A stretch of DNA of 64,000 nt from an uncultured Nitrospiraceae bacterium. GTDB taxonomy: Bacteria > Nitrospirota > Thermodesulfovibrionia > Thermodesulfovibrionales > Dissulfurispiraceae. The notes below the pieces were generated by a model. The model searched no databases. It was not told the origin of the DNA and was given only the letters and a program-made list of their open reading frames with translations. Numbering within the stretch: the stretch's first letter is position 1; each line of letters opens with the position of its first letter. Made by a program: the position numbers and the translations under genes. Of the stretch, positions 4,724 through 11,546 are shown piece after piece. The DNA lies in contig CAIJNL010000018.1 in assembly GCA_903822005.1 (NCBI GenBank), positions 186,001 through 250,000 on the forward strand, read 5' to 3'.

Positions 4724-4763
4724 GCTGAATGGCTTCACTTTTAATAAATCAACTTAGGGAGCC

Positions 4764-5083
4764 GCCAAGTGCAACCGCCTCTTGTCTCGCTGAATAAGAC
4801 CACTTCACTTTTTCAACCGCATTAGCTGAAAGGCGCACATCATTTTCGTCCGTTTACAATCGCAAGGAAGGTCACACCGAGACATCCAGTCGGATGCCCT
4901 TGCCGTCTTCTCCAAATAACAATGCTTGTAATTAGCTACTGTATTCGGAGGCGATAGGATCGAAGGCTCGCCGCGGCTGTTGAGTAGCTTCTCTGGAAAG
5001 AGATACTAATTATTTTCGAATCTATGTTAGATCAAAGTCACTGAGCTTATTTGGCGAGGCGAGATTCGGAGCCTTCAAAGACA
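4764..5083 (+). repeat. Intergenic element copy A, candidate structured RNA
   Basis: About 320 bp that align with 9709-10019 at roughly 85% identity in two blocks, by hand alignment. The 5' block is closed by TGTCTCG (4783-4789) pairing with CGAGACA (4878-4884). The 3' block is exactly 130 nt, closed by GGAGGC (4947-4952) with GCCTTC (5071-5076), including one G-U pair. Inside the 3' block TCTCT-GGAA-AGAGA (4990-5003) forms a GNRA-capped hairpin. ATCTA/TAGAT (around 5020-5032) can fold locally, and CGAATCT can alternatively pair with AGATTCG downstream. The linker, about 4885-4946, differs from copy B. The loop and wobble pairs favour the plus strand. Flanking genes read the other way, so a cis riboswitch is unlikely. 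I do not recognise a known RNA family. Confidence 0.88.
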
Positions 5084-5103
5084 GTTAAAAGCGAGTGAAA
5101 AGT

Positions 5104-5179
5104 TGGCTCCTGGGGAGGGACTCGAACCCCCGACAAGGTGGTTAACAGCCACCCGCTCTGCCAGCTGAGCTACCCAGGA
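5104..5179 (-). tRNA. tRNA-Asn (anticodon GTT)
   Basis: Read on the minus strand, a 7-bp acceptor stem (TCCTGGG/CCCAGGA), the D-arm sequence AGCTCAGCTGGCAGAGC, an anticodon loop CTGTTAA giving GTT, and a T arm with GGTTCGAGTCC are all present. The 3' CCA is encoded (the TGG at 5104-5106 on the plus strand). Total length is 76 nt with no intron. It lies between element copy A and clpB. Confidence 0.97.
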
Positions 5180-5292
5180 ATCCTTTATGAACCGGCAACC
5201 TGTACCAGCGCTTCGGGCCGATCAGACAACGTGAACCTGCCAGCCTCGAAGCCTGTTATTATTGCAAAAACAAGGTTCTTCTGTCAATGAAA

Positions 5293-5327
5293 CAGCCCGG
5301 CATACCAGATAATCGCGTGCCGGGCTG
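5293..5327 (-). terminator. Hairpin downstream of clpB, probable terminator
   Basis: CAGCCCGGCA (5293-5302) and TGCCGGGCTG (5318-5327) form a perfect 10-bp stem with a 15-nt loop, 45 bases past the clpB stop codon. The tract after the stem is only weakly T-rich on the minus strand, so termination efficiency is uncertain. Confidence 0.6.
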
Positions 5328-5371
5328 CTCCTTTCTATGCGACGATATTCTTTAACTTGCTGCAGGCTGAA

Positions 5372-8011
5372 CTATATGTGGGCCGCAGTGCCAATTTTGT
5401 TGAATACCATCTTTTCATCAGCATAATCGACCTGAATCATGTCGCCTTCCGAGATACCGCGCTCAAGCAGTTTCATGGCTAGAGGGTTCAGTATCTCATT
5501 CTGTATGGCACGCTTCAGCGGCCTGGCCCCATAGACAGGATCAAACCCGGCTGTAGCGACACGCTCCTTTGCCTTGTCGGTAAGGGTTATGTCTATCTTT
5601 TTTTCCATCAGATATTTCTTCATACGCCCGACCTGTATGTCGACGATCTTCTTCAGCAGTTCTGTATTCAGGGCATTGAAGATGACTATTTCGTCGATGC
5701 GGTTAAGAAACTCGGGCCTGAAGAATTTCTTCAGATCATCCATCACCCTGTCTTTGAGTTTCTTGTTGTCATCTCCGCTCCAATGAGCCGGCTTCTTTGC
5801 ACTAGCCTCAAGCAGCTCCTGGATATGCGCGCTCCCTATATTGGATGTCATTATGACAACCGTATTTCTGAAATCAACAGTGCGGCCGTGGCCGTCCGTC
5901 AGACGCCCGTCATCGAGCAGCTGAAGAAGGGTATTAAATACCTCCGGATGCGCCTTCTCGATCTCATCGAAAAGGACCACCGAATACGGCCTCCTGCGAA
6001 CTGCCTCGGTAAGCTGCCCTCCCTCTTCATACCCGACATAGCCCGGAGGCGCTCCTATCAGGCGCGAAACAGTGTGCCGCTCCTGATACTCCGACATATC
6101 GATGCGGATCATCGCGCTTTCGTCGTCAAAGAGAAACTCTGCAACACCCTTGGCGAGTTCAGTCTTTCCCACGCCTGTAGGTCCTAGGAAGATAAAAGAT
6201 CCAATCGGCCTGTTCGGGTCCTGCAGTCCTGACCGGGCCCGCCTTATGGCATTAGCAACCGCGCCCAGGGCCTCTTCCTGGCCCACCACGCGCTGTCTGA
6301 GCCGGTCTTCCATATGAATGAGCTTCTGGACCTCGCTTTCGAGCATGCGTGTTACCGGAACGCCGCTCCATTTCGAGACCACTTCAGCTATGTCTTCGTC
6401 GTCAACTTCTTCCTTCAGCATCTTGCGCACAGACTGAGTCTCTGCCAGATGAGTGCTCTCTTTCTCGAGCTCACGCTGAAGTTCAATCAGCTTGCCATAC
6501 TTCAGTTCAGCGGCCTTTGCGAGATCACCCTCTCTTTCCGCCCGTTCAGACCCGATCTTTGTCTGGTCTATCTGCTCCTTGATGTCCCTGATCTTCCTGA
6601 TGATCTCTTTCTCTCTCATCCACTGCGACTTGAGGATGTCCAGGTTCGACTGCAGCTCAGCTGACTCTTTTGCAAGCTTTTTGAGTTTTTCTTTTGATTC
6701 CTTTGATCCGTCCTTCGTCAGTGCCCGCTTCTCAATCTCTATCTGACGCAGCCTTCTCTCGAGTTCGTCCAGCTCTGTCGGCATGCTGTCGATCTCCATC
6801 CTCAGCTTTGCCGCCGCTTCGTCTATCAGATCGATTGCCTTGTCAGGCAGAAACCTTTCAGTAAGATAGCGGTCAGAAAGCATAACGGCTGCGATGAGCG
6901 CCGAATCCTTGATCTTGACCCCATGATGTATCTCGTAACGCTCTTTCAGGCCGCGGAGTATCGATATCGTATCATCTAACGTCGGCTCCTTCACCAGCAC
7001 CGGCTGAAATCTGCGCTCAAGCGCCGGGTCTTTTTCTATGTATTTGCGGAATTCATTGATCGTTGTGGCCCCAATGCATCTCAGCTCGCCGCGCGCAAGG
7101 GCCGGCTTTAGCATGTTAGATGCGTCTACTGACCCTTCAGCAGCGCCGGCGCCTACTAAGGTATGCAACTCATCTATAAAGGTAATGACCTTGCCCTCTG
7201 CCTGTTCAATCTCCTTAAGAACTGCCTTCAGACGGTCTTCAAATTCGCCGCGGTATTTTGCACCTGCCACAAGACTGCCCATATCCAGGGTAATAAGTCT
7301 TTTATTCTTCAGCGTCTCGGGTACATCGCCTGCGACCATCCTTTGTGCCAGCCCTTCTACAATGGCAGTTTTGCCGACACCCGGATCGCCGATGAGGACA
7401 GGGTTATTTTTGGTCTTGCGGGACAGCACCTGCACCACGCGCCTGATCTCCTCATCCCGGCCTATGACCGGATCGAGTTTCCCCTTTCTTGCGAGCTCGG
7501 TAAGGTCCTTACCATATTTTTTAAGGGCCTGATATTTGTCTTCCGGATTCGGATCAGTTACCCTGTGCGCGCCGCGGATCTCTCTCATCGCTTCCATCAA
7601 ATTCTCGCGAGTAGCCCCGTGGCGCTTCAGCACATCCGTAGCGGGCCCCTTGTCGCTAAAAATGGCTATCAGGATATGCTCTACGCTTATAAACTCGTCG
7701 GTCAGGTGCTGGGCCTCGTCAAAGGCCTTTTCGAGCACTGCCTTTAGTCTGGGCGACATGTATAATTGCCCCATAGGGGTCGCACCTGTAACCTTGGGGA
7801 ACTTCTCGATTTCTTTTTCGAGATCGACCCGGATGGCAGAAATATCCGCGCCTACCCGGCTTAAGAGTTGCGGACCTATGCCTTCATCATCTCCGAGTAT
7901 TGCATAGAGGAGATGTTCAACCTCAACCTGCTGATTGCCTTTTTTTTCGGCCAGCCCCTGAGCTTCCTGCAGGGCCTCCTGGCTTTTTATTGTTAATTTA
8001 TCCATTCTCAT
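5372..8011 (-). CDS. clpB: ATP-dependent disaggregase ClpB
   Basis: An 879-residue Hsp100 chaperone that, with DnaK/DnaJ, extracts polypeptides from aggregates in the cytoplasm. The order is standard: Clp N-terminal repeats (about 1-145), first AAA+ module with GDPGVGKT at 208-215, the long coiled-coil middle domain (about 400-525) that separates ClpB from ClpA/ClpC, then a second AAA+ module with GPTGVGKT, and the C-terminal D2-small domain. Length is normal for ClpB. A good GGAGG lies eight bases before ATG 8011. It follows hspR after a 142-bp gap containing CAAGTT inverted repeats, so HspR control is likely. The hairpin at 5293-5327 probably ends the transcript. Confidence 0.98.
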
Positions 8012-8029
8012 ATAGAAATCCTCCTAATT

Positions 8030-8072
8030 GTGCAAGTTGAGAATTGTCATCTCTATTTGCACATAAACTTGC
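8030..8072. promoter_or_regulatory. Inverted repeats upstream of clpB, candidate HspR operator
   Basis: Two overlapping inverted repeats lie between hspR and clpB: GCAAGTT (8032-8038) with AACTTGC (8066-8072), and GTGCAA (8030-8035) with TTGCAC (8057-8062). The arm CAAGTTGAG resembles the CTTGAG half-site of known HspR boxes (HAIR) but not the full consensus, and the spacing is longer. A related CAAGTT arm occurs at the dnaJ promoter. Confidence 0.4.
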
Positions 8073-8153
8073 GTGGCCTTGTTTAGCATTGGCATTCAAA
8101 CTGTTAACTGATTATATTTTATCCGAATCTGATTGAAAGCAACTTACCGCCGA

Positions 8154-8507
8154 TTACTCTTCGCTGAACAGGGCCGTCAGTCGCCTTTCGAATTCCTTCC
8201 GAATACCCTCATCCAGCAGCCCCATCATAGCGCCCATTTCTCTCTGCATGCCCTCGATCCTGTTTCGCAGCCTCAATATGATGTCGACACCAGCCCTGTT
8301 GACGCCCAGGTCCCGGGTCAACTCAATGATCAGATGCAGCCTCTGGACATCTATGTCCGAATAGAGTCTCTGGCGGTTGATCCTCGTTGGACTGACAAAG
8401 CCTTCCCGTTCATATAGCCGCAATGTCTGGGGATGCACTTCAAGCATCTGCGAAACGACGCTTATCAGATATAGCGGCCTGTCAGCATCTTTCTTTCGCC
8501 TTACCAT
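8154..8507 (-). CDS. hspR: MerR-family heat-shock regulator HspR
   Basis: A 117-residue MerR-type protein. The N-terminal winged helix-turn-helix contains [19 protein letters not shown], closely matching HspR proteins, which repress chaperone genes and use DnaK as co-repressor. A short coiled-coil dimerisation helix follows; no metal-binding cysteines are present, unlike metal-sensing MerR proteins. The start overlaps the dnaJ stop by seven bases, giving translational coupling, and clpB follows. The dnaJ-hspR pairing is known in actinobacteria and some other lineages and supports autoregulation of this block. The likely inducer is unfolded protein titrating DnaK; dnaK itself is not in the window. 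Confidence 0.9.
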
Positions 8508-9601
8508 GACTTTTTCTCCCCCATCTTCTTTCTCGGGTTCTCTTTATACAACTCTTCAATTACGTTTATTGCCTCTTTAGCCTTTTCAGGTATGTCCTTA
8601 GGCACCGCAACCCTTATCTCCACAAATTGGTCGCCGCGCTGGCCTGATTTTGTCGCTATATATCCCTTTCCACTCAGTTTGAAGCGCCGCCCGCCCTGGG
8701 TGCCGGCAGGCAAGGTCATCATAGACGCGCCGTCCAGCGTCGGGACTTCGATCTTTGCTCCGAGAGCCGCCTCGCCGAAGGTGACCGGGATCTGGACATT
8801 AATGTCCTTCCCGTCTTTCTTGAATACCGGATGCGGCCTGAGGCTAATCTCTATCAGAAGGTCTCCTGAATGGCCACCGCGCCCTGCATTCCCCTTGCCT
8901 TTGAGCCTTATCACCGAGCCGTCGTCGGCGCCTGCGGGTATCTTTACCTTTATGGTTTCCGCATGATTCGCAGACCCCTTGCCGTAACACTTTTTGCATG
9001 AAGCCAGGGCCTTTTTGCCCCTGCCACCGCAATCAGGACAGATCTGCGCCATCCTTATGAAGCCTTTACCACCCTGTATATGTCCGGTGCCTTTGCATTT
9101 TGAACATGTCTCGAATGACTCGGCGCCTGTGCCGCCGCATGAACTGCATGACGCGGCCCGCGACAGGGGAATATTCATCGTAGTTCCGGTAAAGGCCTCC
9201 TCGAGCGAAAGATCGAGATGCATAAGAAGGTCTTCACCCCGGCTTTGTTCAGGCTCTTGTGAATATCTACCACCAAAAAGATCACCGAATATGTCGGAAA
9301 AGTCTGCAGTTCCTGCTCCGGCTCTGCCGCCGCCCCCGCCAAAATCGAATCCGCCGTAACCTCCATGATTATCAAAGTTAAACTGGCCGCCCCTGTCATG
9401 CTCAGCGCGTTTCTTCGCGTCGCCCAGGATATCGTAGGCCTCGCTTATCTCCTTGAATTTGTCTTCAGCCTGCTTGTTGCCAGCATTAAGGTCAGGATGA
9501 TGCTTTCTGGCCAGCTTGCGATAGGCCTTTTTTATGTCATCCTGGCTTGCGTCCTTGCTGACACCGAGCACTTTATAGTAGTCCTTTACACCTGCAGTCA
9601 T
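8501..9601 (-). CDS. dnaJ: Chaperone protein DnaJ
   Basis: A type I J-protein of 366 residues from the preferred start. The J domain carries HPD at 35-37; then come a Gly/Phe-rich linker, the zinc-binding region with [24 protein letters not shown] and CKKCYGKG, and the two C-terminal substrate-binding barrels. It stimulates DnaK ATP hydrolysis and hands over unfolded clients. I chose ATG 9601 rather than the upstream ATG 9628 because AGGGGAG precedes 9601 at good spacing, and the -10 at 9633-9638 puts the transcript start near 9626, leaving 9628 outside the message. It is followed directly by hspR. Confidence 0.97.
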
Positions 9602-9632
9602 ATAATTCTCCCCTGTTCTTTTACTCATTTAT

Positions 9633-9661
9633 ATGATAATACTTTATACGAATCATGTCAA
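9633..9661 (-). promoter_or_regulatory. Sigma-70-type promoter of dnaJ-hspR with overlapping palindrome
   Basis: On the minus strand TTGACA (9661-9656), a 17-base spacer and TATCAT (9638-9633) form a near-consensus vegetative promoter. The palindrome GTCAA-GTTAG-TTGAC (9657-9671) overlaps the -35, a natural repressor position; HspR is the obvious candidate. Confidence 0.75.
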
Positions 9662-9708
9662 GTTAGTTGACTTTGCATCATGGAGGCAATATTCGTATAT
9701 TTGACACG

Positions 9709-10019
9709 GCAAGCGCACCTGCCTCTTGTCTCGCTGAATAAGACTACTTCACTTTGACAACCGCATTTTTCTGAAAGACGCAGATCATTATCGTCTGTTT
9801 ATAATCGAAAGGAAGGTCACACCGAGACATCGAGTCGGCCACCCTAGCCTTCTAAGATTGATTTAACTTACCGCTGTCTTGGGAGGCGATAGGATCGAAG
9901 GGGCGCCGCAGTCTTTGAGTTGCTTCTCTGGAAAGAGATTCTGCTTATTTTCGAATCTGTATTAGATTAAGGTACCTGAGCACATTTGGCGAGCCAAGAT
10001 TCAGAGCCTCCAAAGACAG
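9709..10019 (+). repeat. Intergenic element copy B, candidate structured RNA
   Basis: The second copy of the element at 4764-5083, same orientation. The 5' domain is closed by TGTCTCG (9727-9733) with CGAGACA (9823-9829), spanning 103 nt against 102 in copy A. The 3' domain is closed by GGAGGC (9882-9887) with GCCTCC (10006-10011), exactly 130 nt as in copy A but fully Watson-Crick here. The hairpin TCTCT-GGAA-AGAGA (9925-9938) is identical. In the 5' domain AGACG pairs with CGTCT; in copy A the same pairing survives with an A-U changed to G-U. The linker between domains is shorter than in A. It lies between the divergent dnaJ promoter and the end of the DUF3108 gene, with no open reading frame. 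Confidence 0.88.
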
Positions 10020-10036: not shown

Positions 10037-10777
10037 TTAATATATGCCGCCGGTGAGGGTCGCCATTATCGCGCCGATCTTTACCTTGGTCTTAAGCAGC
10101 ACAGGAAGCCGCTTTCCATCATCCGTGAGCCAGATAAGCACATCGCCTTTTCGCTGGAATATTCCTTCTGTAAGCAATATCGGCTTGATCAGGATCGTAT
10201 TGAACTTGCCCAGCGGGGTCTCAATCTCTTCCTTCTTCAATACTTGAACCTCGACCCTGTAATACTTTTTGTTGTCAAATATCTGGGCATAGACAGACGT
10301 TCCTACTTTTAGCGGAAGATATCTGACATGGAAGAAACAGGTGAGGGCATCCATCGTAGATTCGCCGACATCGTATGACAGCGTCTCATTTTCCAGATGG
10401 TTTATAAATGTGGCCTTGCCCGCTTTCAGATCGAAGATAACCTCTCTGTCTTTTCTGCTCGAACCTTCAGCCATCTTCACCCTGTAATTGTAGGGTATTC
10501 CCGGCAAGGTCTTGTGCGGCACCTTCCTAAGAGAGCTGACCGCAGTATCCTCAACCTTATAGAAAACAGTCACGACCGGAGAAGATATGGCCCGCGAAAT
10601 AAATTGTATGTCCGAACCGGTGTCTTTCACCTCAAGCACGGCTGTTCCGGCCAGTATGCCGGCCCACGTCAGATCATACTCGAGCCTCTCTGGTATTGTT
10701 AAAGCGGTAGCAACAGAACCGCCGATGAGAAATAATGACGCCATACAGACGGCCATCAAGGATTTTTTTGTTATCAA
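10037..10777 (-). CDS. DUF3108 domain protein, exported
   Basis: A periplasmic DUF3108 protein of about 246 residues. I prefer TTG 10777 as start: it follows a GGGGG stretch and gives an N-terminus (ITKKSLMAVCMASLFLIGG, then ATA-LT) that is a clean signal peptide, while the longer reading from 10897 would run through the divergent hisA start. The body has the alternating strand pattern of the family, whose members are outer-envelope-associated and of unknown biochemical role. It is divergent from hisA with 43 bp between starts, and its 3' end lies 17 bp from element copy B. The start choice is moderately certain, the family assignment good. Confidence 0.75.
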   Translation of the reverse strand: MITKKSLMAVCMASLFLIGGSVATALTIPERLEYDLTWAGILAGTAVLEVKDTGSDIQFISRAISSPVVTVFYKVEDTAVSSLRKVPHKTLPGIPYNYRVKMAEGSSRKDREVIFDLKAGKATFINHLENETLSYDVGESTMDALTCFFHVRYLPLKVGTSVYAQIFDNKKYYRVEVQVLKKEEIETPLGKFNTILIKPILLTEGIFQRKGDVLIWLTDDGKRLPVLLKTKVKIGAIMATLTGGIY

Positions 10778-10809
10778 GCTGCCCCCAACATGCTTTGCCC
10801 TCTTTTTGT

Positions 10810-10820
10810 TATAGTATACA
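10810..10820 (+). promoter_or_regulatory. -10 region adjoining the hisA start
   Basis: TATAGT (10810-10815) and the overlapping TATACA (10815-10820) lie immediately before ATG 10821. Using the first hexamer, transcription starts at about 10821-10823, so hisA would be leaderless. No Shine-Dalgarno sequence is present. The -35 is poor. Confidence 0.4.
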
Positions 10821-11546
10821 ATGTTGGTGATTCCCGCAATAGACCTAAAGGATGGACTCTGCGTCAGATTGCTGCAAGGCAAGAAGGATGACTCCACCGT
10901 TTATTCCGACGATCCGGTTGCGACCGCGCTCAAGTGGCAGGCAATGGGAGCGCTGCGATTGCATATCGTTGATCTGGATGGCGCGTTTACCGGCAGCCAG
11001 AAAAACCTCGAAAGCATTATCCGGATCAGAAGGGCAATCGATATAGATATTGAAATCGGCGGAGGCATTCGTACGCTCGCCAGGATCGATCTCCTGCTCT
11101 CAGAAGGTATCAACAGGATTATTCTCGGAACAGTGGCAATAGAAAAACCTGACCTGGTAAAGACGGCCTGCGCAAGGTATCCCGGCAGGGTGCTGGTCGG
11201 CATTGACGCAAAGAACGGCGATGTGGCGGTAAAGGGCTGGGTTGAAGTTACCTCGGTCAAGGCCTTTGATCTTGCGCTAAGGATGCAGGACCTGGGATGC
11301 GCCGGAATTATTTATACTGATATCTCGAAAGACGGGATGATGACCGGACCGAACCTTGAAGCAGTCAGGATAATGGTCTCAGGCCTTAAAATTCCTGTAA
11401 TTGCTTCGGGTGGTATATCGTCTATAGAAGATATAAGAAATCTTGTTGCGATACAGGGCCTCTGGGGCGCCATTACCGGCAAGGCCATTTATTCAGGCGC
11501 GCTCGACCTGCAGGAGGCCATCCGGGTATCGGAGGCCAAGTGTTAG
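10821..11546 (+). CDS. hisA: Phosphoribosylformimino-5-aminoimidazole carboxamide ribotide isomerase
   Basis: HisA isomerises ProFAR to PRFAR in histidine biosynthesis. The 241-residue protein starts with [12 protein letters not shown], containing the catalytic aspartate near residue 8. It shows both halves of the phosphate-binding TIM barrel: GGGIRT around residue 80, the second catalytic aspartate in [10 protein letters not shown], and the ASGGIS phosphate motif. Length is normal. It overlaps hisF by seven bases, so the two consecutive enzymes are translationally coupled. There is no Shine-Dalgarno sequence before the ATG, and a -10 element abuts it. hisH and other his genes are not in the window. 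Confidence 0.97.

Follow-up and report, generated by a model that had tools for sequence, protein, structure and literature searches.

Intergenic hairpins of one family are dispersed through the genome that supplied the window, the 64-kb stretch of DNA analysed here. The host bacterium is a relative of Thermodesulfovibrio. We count about 70 modules at about 50 intergenic loci of this genome (3.23 Mb, 48 contigs); each is a hairpin-forming unit of about 145 nt that lies between genes and is often joined to another as an inverted pair. We show that the modules are a homologous, covarying family of hairpins constrained on one strand. They are best read as an undescribed family of hairpin elements that are kept folded on one strand and probably recognised by a protein. 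Two copies, A (4760-5083) and B (9706-10018), are the only ones inside the window.

Modules, pairs, and common layout

A blastn search of the window's own 3.23-Mb genome with positions 4775-5090 returned 48 matches. Many cover the first 136 bases alone, and the element is therefore modular. A covariance model gave 84 matches in the same genome, about 70 of them strong. Three subfamilies were aligned: m1 (39 copies, alignment A1), m2 (11 copies, A2), and m3 (12 copies, A3). m1 is found alone, joined to m2, or joined to m3, the last of which has no copy in the window. At about half of the loci, including A and B, two homologous but distinct modules are joined 5' end to 5' end. These head-to-head pairs consist of m1 and a module of the m2 or m3 type, and the sequence and length of the spacer differ among composites. 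Across all neighbouring modules, 20 arrangements are head-to-head, 4 are tail-to-tail, and 0 are tandem.

In A, m1 lies at 4760..4908 with the minus strand as its sense strand (116 bits, E 4.7e-27; C18:190760-190908) and m2 at 4940..5083 with the plus strand as its sense strand (103 bits, E 1.3e-23; C18:190940-191083); a 31-nt spacer (4909..4939) lies between their facing 5' ends. B repeats the arrangement across 21 nt (9854..9874), with m1 at 9706..9853 on the minus strand (115 bits, E 8.4e-27; C18:195706-195853) and m2 at 9875..10018 on the plus strand (110 bits, E 2.4e-25; C18:195875-196018).

All three subfamilies share a layout: an outer helix P1 of about 14-17 bp, a short P2, a small internal loop, and an inner helix P3, beyond which follow a second conserved internal loop with CTNATT and a variable top. 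Once m1 is reverse-complemented, its layout matches that of m2 and m3, and the joint alignment A4 holds all three in a single pairing register. There, P1 pairs columns 4-16 with 142-154 and runs on into P2 (columns 18-24 with 134-140), and P3 pairs columns 28-36 with 123-131. The sequence of P1 is free to vary provided that pairing is kept. The modules have in common a 3' core: CTTATTCAGCGAGACAAGAG in m1, CTTATTTGGCGAGCCGAGAT in m2, and TGATTCAGCAAGCCGAGAT in m3. In the m1 module of A, this near-invariant core occupies 4777..4799 on the minus strand and reads CTTATTCAGCGAGACAAGAGGC in the sense direction, comprising the CTNATT strand of the internal loop, the 3' strand of P3, and the P2/P3 loop. 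Its homologue in the m2 module of A (5047..5067, plus strand, TTATTTGGCGAGGCGAGATTC) was found by motif match, and A4 aligns it with the cores of m1 and m3.

An earlier note on this DNA had placed one element at 4783-5076. The element stands, but its extent does not: the closing stems reach further out, and A comprises 4760-4908 plus 4940-5083. The complementary ends that the note listed are exact. TGTCTCG and CGAGACA lie at 4783-4789 and 4878-4884 in A (102 nt) and at 9727-9733 and 9823-9829 in B (103 nt); GGAGGC pairs with GCCTTC in A (4947-4952 with 5071-5076) and with GCCTCC in B (9882-9887 with 10006-10011), spanning 130 nt in both. The first of these had been taken as the closure of a 5' domain and is really P3, the inner helix within a longer hairpin, the arm at 4783..4789 reading TGTCTCG on the plus strand of a module whose sense strand is minus. 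GGAGGC at 4947..4952 is, on the plus strand, the inner P1 arm of m2. The sequence TCTCTGGAAAGAGA is found at 4990-5003 and 9925-9938 as described. It is not conserved as had been claimed: it is altered or absent in the other nine copies of the 3' type, and the TCTCT-GGAA-AGAGA hairpin is intact in A and B only, so that a GNRA (GGAA) loop is not a feature of the family.

Some copies depart from the common layout. A few are decayed or truncated (L042, L043, L095, and L097), and two are hairpin-only derivatives of about 42-52 nt, made of P1 arms and a short loop (L099, C20:7398-7449; L100, C41:16968-17009). One chimera places the m1 outer stem around a reversed m3 core (L042/L103, C16:82052-82159).

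Covariation, sense strand, and age of the copies

The earlier note had proposed a structured element and had made covariation among homologues one test of it; such covariation is found and strongly supports the proposal. In A4, 84% of cells are paired, two-sided changes occur in 20 of 29 pairs, and the covariation score is 0.405 versus 0.182 in shuffled alignments; 0 of 500 shuffles reach the observed value, and slid controls stay at or below 0.115. For m1 alone, the score is 0.233 versus 0.134 shuffled. Adding the copies of two other genomes, in an alignment of the two arms of each copy joined with the loop omitted, gives 0.499 versus 0.212 shuffled. When pairing is compared between a copy's own 3' arm and that of its nearest relative, the values are 0.896 versus 0.861 for m1, 0.922 versus 0.857 for m2, and 0.936 versus 0.882 for m3. 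Single-sequence folding gives weak z-scores for m1 (-0.4 to -1.0) and moderate ones for m2 (-1.5 and -2.5). Folding energies are thus only mildly better than those of shuffles, and the case for structure rests on covariation.

The pairs that are not Watson-Crick indicate which strand is folded. G-T pairs outnumber A-C mismatches by 70:12 for m1 on the minus strand, by 27:4 for m2 on the plus strand, and by 33:3 for m3 on the plus strand. Pooled over the assigned strands, the ratio is 130:19; with one count per pair and type, it is 47:16 (p = 1e-4). A constraint on double-stranded DNA alone would leave G-T and A-C equal on either strand, so the observed skew means that one folded strand matters. 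That strand is minus for the 5' module and plus for the 3' module. A single plus-strand RNA, as the earlier note had it, does not fit these counts. Folding energies in A run the same way (-47.0 on minus versus -33.5 on plus for the 5' module, -44.2 on plus versus -32.6 on minus for the 3' module), and RNA folding energies in B show the same strand preference. G-T is also better tolerated than A-C in single-stranded DNA, and the wobble bias by itself is therefore no proof of RNA.

Copies within the genome are old and well diverged from one another. The m1 copies have a mean identity of 74% (best 0.857); the closest sibling of any copy is only 81-88% identical, and there are no near-identical copies. 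The tree of the 39 m1 copies is star-like, with terminal branches making up 84% of its length. On these branches, 23 double stem changes remain paired and 1 does not, against 6.8 expected, and Watson-Crick pairs give way to G-T in 41 cases and to A-C in 11. The 15 core columns of m1 (585 cells) have 3 terminal-branch changes in total, as against 4.13 per column elsewhere. Terminal branches thus show purifying selection. Detection used the whole module and would not have failed over a few core changes, so ascertainment probably does not explain the conserved core. The lack of close siblings, the compensation on terminal branches, and the near-static core together make the copies look individually maintained. 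The simplest reading is that most copies have been maintained one by one; terminal branches may include time before insertion.

Relatives and genomic setting

Across 31 genomes of the family, the covariance model found clear copies in 3: the window's own genome, a congener (G001, one copy), and a member of another genus (G011, 9 copies). The two relatives carry sister subfamilies, and a DNA search with the G001 copy raised the count in that genome to at least 8. In the MAG Thermodesulfovibrio sp. SW.3.61 (order Thermodesulfovibrionales), which we take to be G011 itself, a pattern derived from the G011 copies matched nine contigs. Blastn with m1 in 59 relatives, and a strict two-part pattern over genome contigs, found nothing beyond the own genome, and three viral-contig patterns had no match, nor did plasmids and phages. 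Rfam gave no match at either the gathering or a relaxed threshold. An arms-only model, R2, cannot bridge the loop and so overlooked known copies; its negative survey was excluded.

The G001 copies separate arms from core most clearly. Their arms are 42% identical, which is near chance, and their core is 86% identical; own arms fold at -31 versus -12 kcal/mol for swapped arms, the own combination being best in 7 of 7. Most of them, folded one at a time, give a long hairpin in which AATT faces TCTG across a conserved internal loop. For G001 only, the core may alternatively have been inserted into pre-existing hairpins; this does not explain m1, since P1 is common to all 39 m1 copies. In two G011 copies (L108 and L115), the hairpin is prolonged beyond P1 by inverted ends that are longer and imperfect, CTAACCCTAATAATTCATAAATTT ... 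AAGTTTGTGAATAATCAGGGTTAG. At G000:C20:29503-29526 (L089/L141), a short stretch matching the G001-type core adjoins a divergent own-genome module and is perhaps a relic of the other subfamily.

A crude ORF call puts the modules examined between genes, often only tens of bases from the gene on either side. Beside A and B are genes read from their translations as a P-type ATPase, tRNA-Asn, and dnaJ, together with a gene at 10037-10897. Lone modules between co-directional genes are sense in 4 cases and antisense in 10 (p = 0.18); this lack of a preference for the sense orientation does not favour a simple cis-acting mRNA element. Gene-specific cis-regulation was rejected, as the neighbours of A and B are unrelated and orientation is unbiased. 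A built-in terminator or promoter was also set aside: the module flanks have no fixed promoter-like signal, T-run, or base-composition signal.

In G001, the neighbouring genes of A and B are present and the element is absent at the corresponding sites. Comparison of 4760-10018 with G001:C211:2800-10826 (L127) shows a rearrangement of the genes around A and B: in G001, the tRNA-Asn-clpB-dnaJ block is found inverted on the far side of hisF, and the breakpoints adjoin elements A and B. The own genome has three Y1_Tnp (PF01797) genes, and the locus of about 3.3 kb around each contains no module; a Y1 transposase was accordingly rejected as a partner for lack of adjacency. One Y1_Tnp (RAYT-like) gene, at L105 (C26), is flanked by short repeats of its own (TAGGG.GCGCTGTCCC type, about 1170-1210 and 1900-1925), which are unrelated to the hairpin family.

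Known repeats, rival explanations, and meaning

By layout, the nearest known kinds are the BIME, ERIC, and YPAL repeats. The REP units of BIMEs are extragenic, multi-copy, genome-specific, and alternating, with pairing preserved by complementary changes (PMC2817692); their unit size is 30-40 nt (PMC2267715). The modules resemble them as extragenic, high-copy, genome-specific palindromic units that alternate in orientation within clusters. They differ in size (about 145 nt rather than about 20-40 nt), in pairing a free stem sequence with conserved internal loops where REPs have a conserved stem, in flanking no cognate RAYT (Y1_Tnp) gene, and in being much more diverged from one another. ERIC and YPAL repeats measure about 127-169 nt and lie between genes; ERIC has a predicted fold of one long stem-loop and is reported to act in yersiniae as RNA hairpins on neighbouring genes (PMC2267715). 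The modules are likewise intergenic single long stem-loops in the range of about 130-170 nt. Set against the description of ERIC and YPAL, they differ in their variable stem, conserved loop core, and biased sense strand, and also form head-to-head heterotypic pairs in a host of another phylum.

Other known systems are more distant. Integron attC sites are imperfect hairpins of about 60-140 nt that are recognised as one folded strand; the modules, by contrast, are dispersed rather than set in cassette arrays, their conserved part lies inside with the ends free to vary, and no attC-type terminal boxes were noticed at module ends in alignments A1-A3. HEARO and IscB-associated RNAs are structured and can be multi-copy and mobile, and the modules differ from them in having no Rfam match at either threshold. 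MITEs differ in that P1 of the modules is conserved neither between subfamilies nor between G001 copies, and visual inspection of the ends of 21 composites showed no MITE-type target-site duplication.

The main rival, possible though we would not put it foremost, is that the modules are non-autonomous mobile DNA, a giant kind of REP or BIME. An enzyme acting in trans would recognise the folded single-stranded DNA of one strand, selection would act on mobility, and the mobile unit would be a single module or a head-to-head pair. Much fits: the modules are multi-copy, intergenic, genome-specific, and patchy (3 of 31 genomes), are unbiased relative to gene direction, and include chimeras and hairpin-only derivatives; the G001 sites of A and B lack the element; and, as with REPs in BIMEs (PMC2817692), neighbouring modules switch orientation (20 head-to-head and 4 tail-to-tail, none in tandem). 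Against it, young or near-identical copies are absent although selection acts on terminal branches, no module lies near any of the three Y1_Tnp genes, no target duplication was seen, and a module is roughly four times as large as a REP.

Three further rivals carry little weight. In bacteria, one arm of a palindrome can be rewritten from the other, and such template switching in imperfect palindromes (quasipalindrome correction) would make paired changes without selection. It predicts perfect pairs and no strand bias, however, where G-T exceeds A-C by 130:19 on the sense strands, and it leaves the invariant, asymmetric internal loops unexplained; we consider it very unlikely. Neutral MITE-like relics, whose complementarity would be left over from terminal inverted repeats, would account for inverted ends and for dispersed copies, some of them truncated. 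Neutral arms would lose their pairing, but each copy keeps its own by compensatory changes, the G001 arms differ almost completely yet pair, and conservation sits in the interior core rather than at the ends, which makes this highly improbable. The least probable is the earlier note's single plus-strand RNA with two domains. The fixed order of modules in A and B speaks for it, but the 5' and 3' modules are homologues in reverse orientation that share one A4 register, the two have opposite sense strands, and modules occur separately, m1 also joining the third type, m3.

We give about an even chance to the reading in which each copy is a folded single strand recognised by a host protein, most likely as RNA. 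The copies would have spread long ago by some copying process and have since been held in place by selection. Each would act as a folded single strand, RNA being preferred since it typically tolerates wobble pairs and has conserved internal loops, and a host protein may recognise the fold through the two conserved internal loops. The long helix would serve as a stabilising or processing hairpin, the role proposed for ERIC repeats.

Whether bacterial intergenic hairpin repeats are individually useful or merely mobile is still argued, decades after they became known. Here, stem upkeep on one strand along single-copy branches, a nearly static core, and no visible recent copying make the question of use in place testable, and the recognisable core offers a bait for a binding protein. 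The family adds an undescribed structured group that is missing from Rfam and is represented by separate subfamilies in three genomes or more. More tentatively, and on balance doubtfully, it might be an undescribed class of multi-copy structured noncoding RNA in Thermodesulfovibrionales. Each genome would then contain dozens of RNA genes or RNA-level sites, each under selection of its own and set in divergent heterotypic pairs; their closing stems would covary freely, and a dedicated protein would bind their conserved two-loop core.
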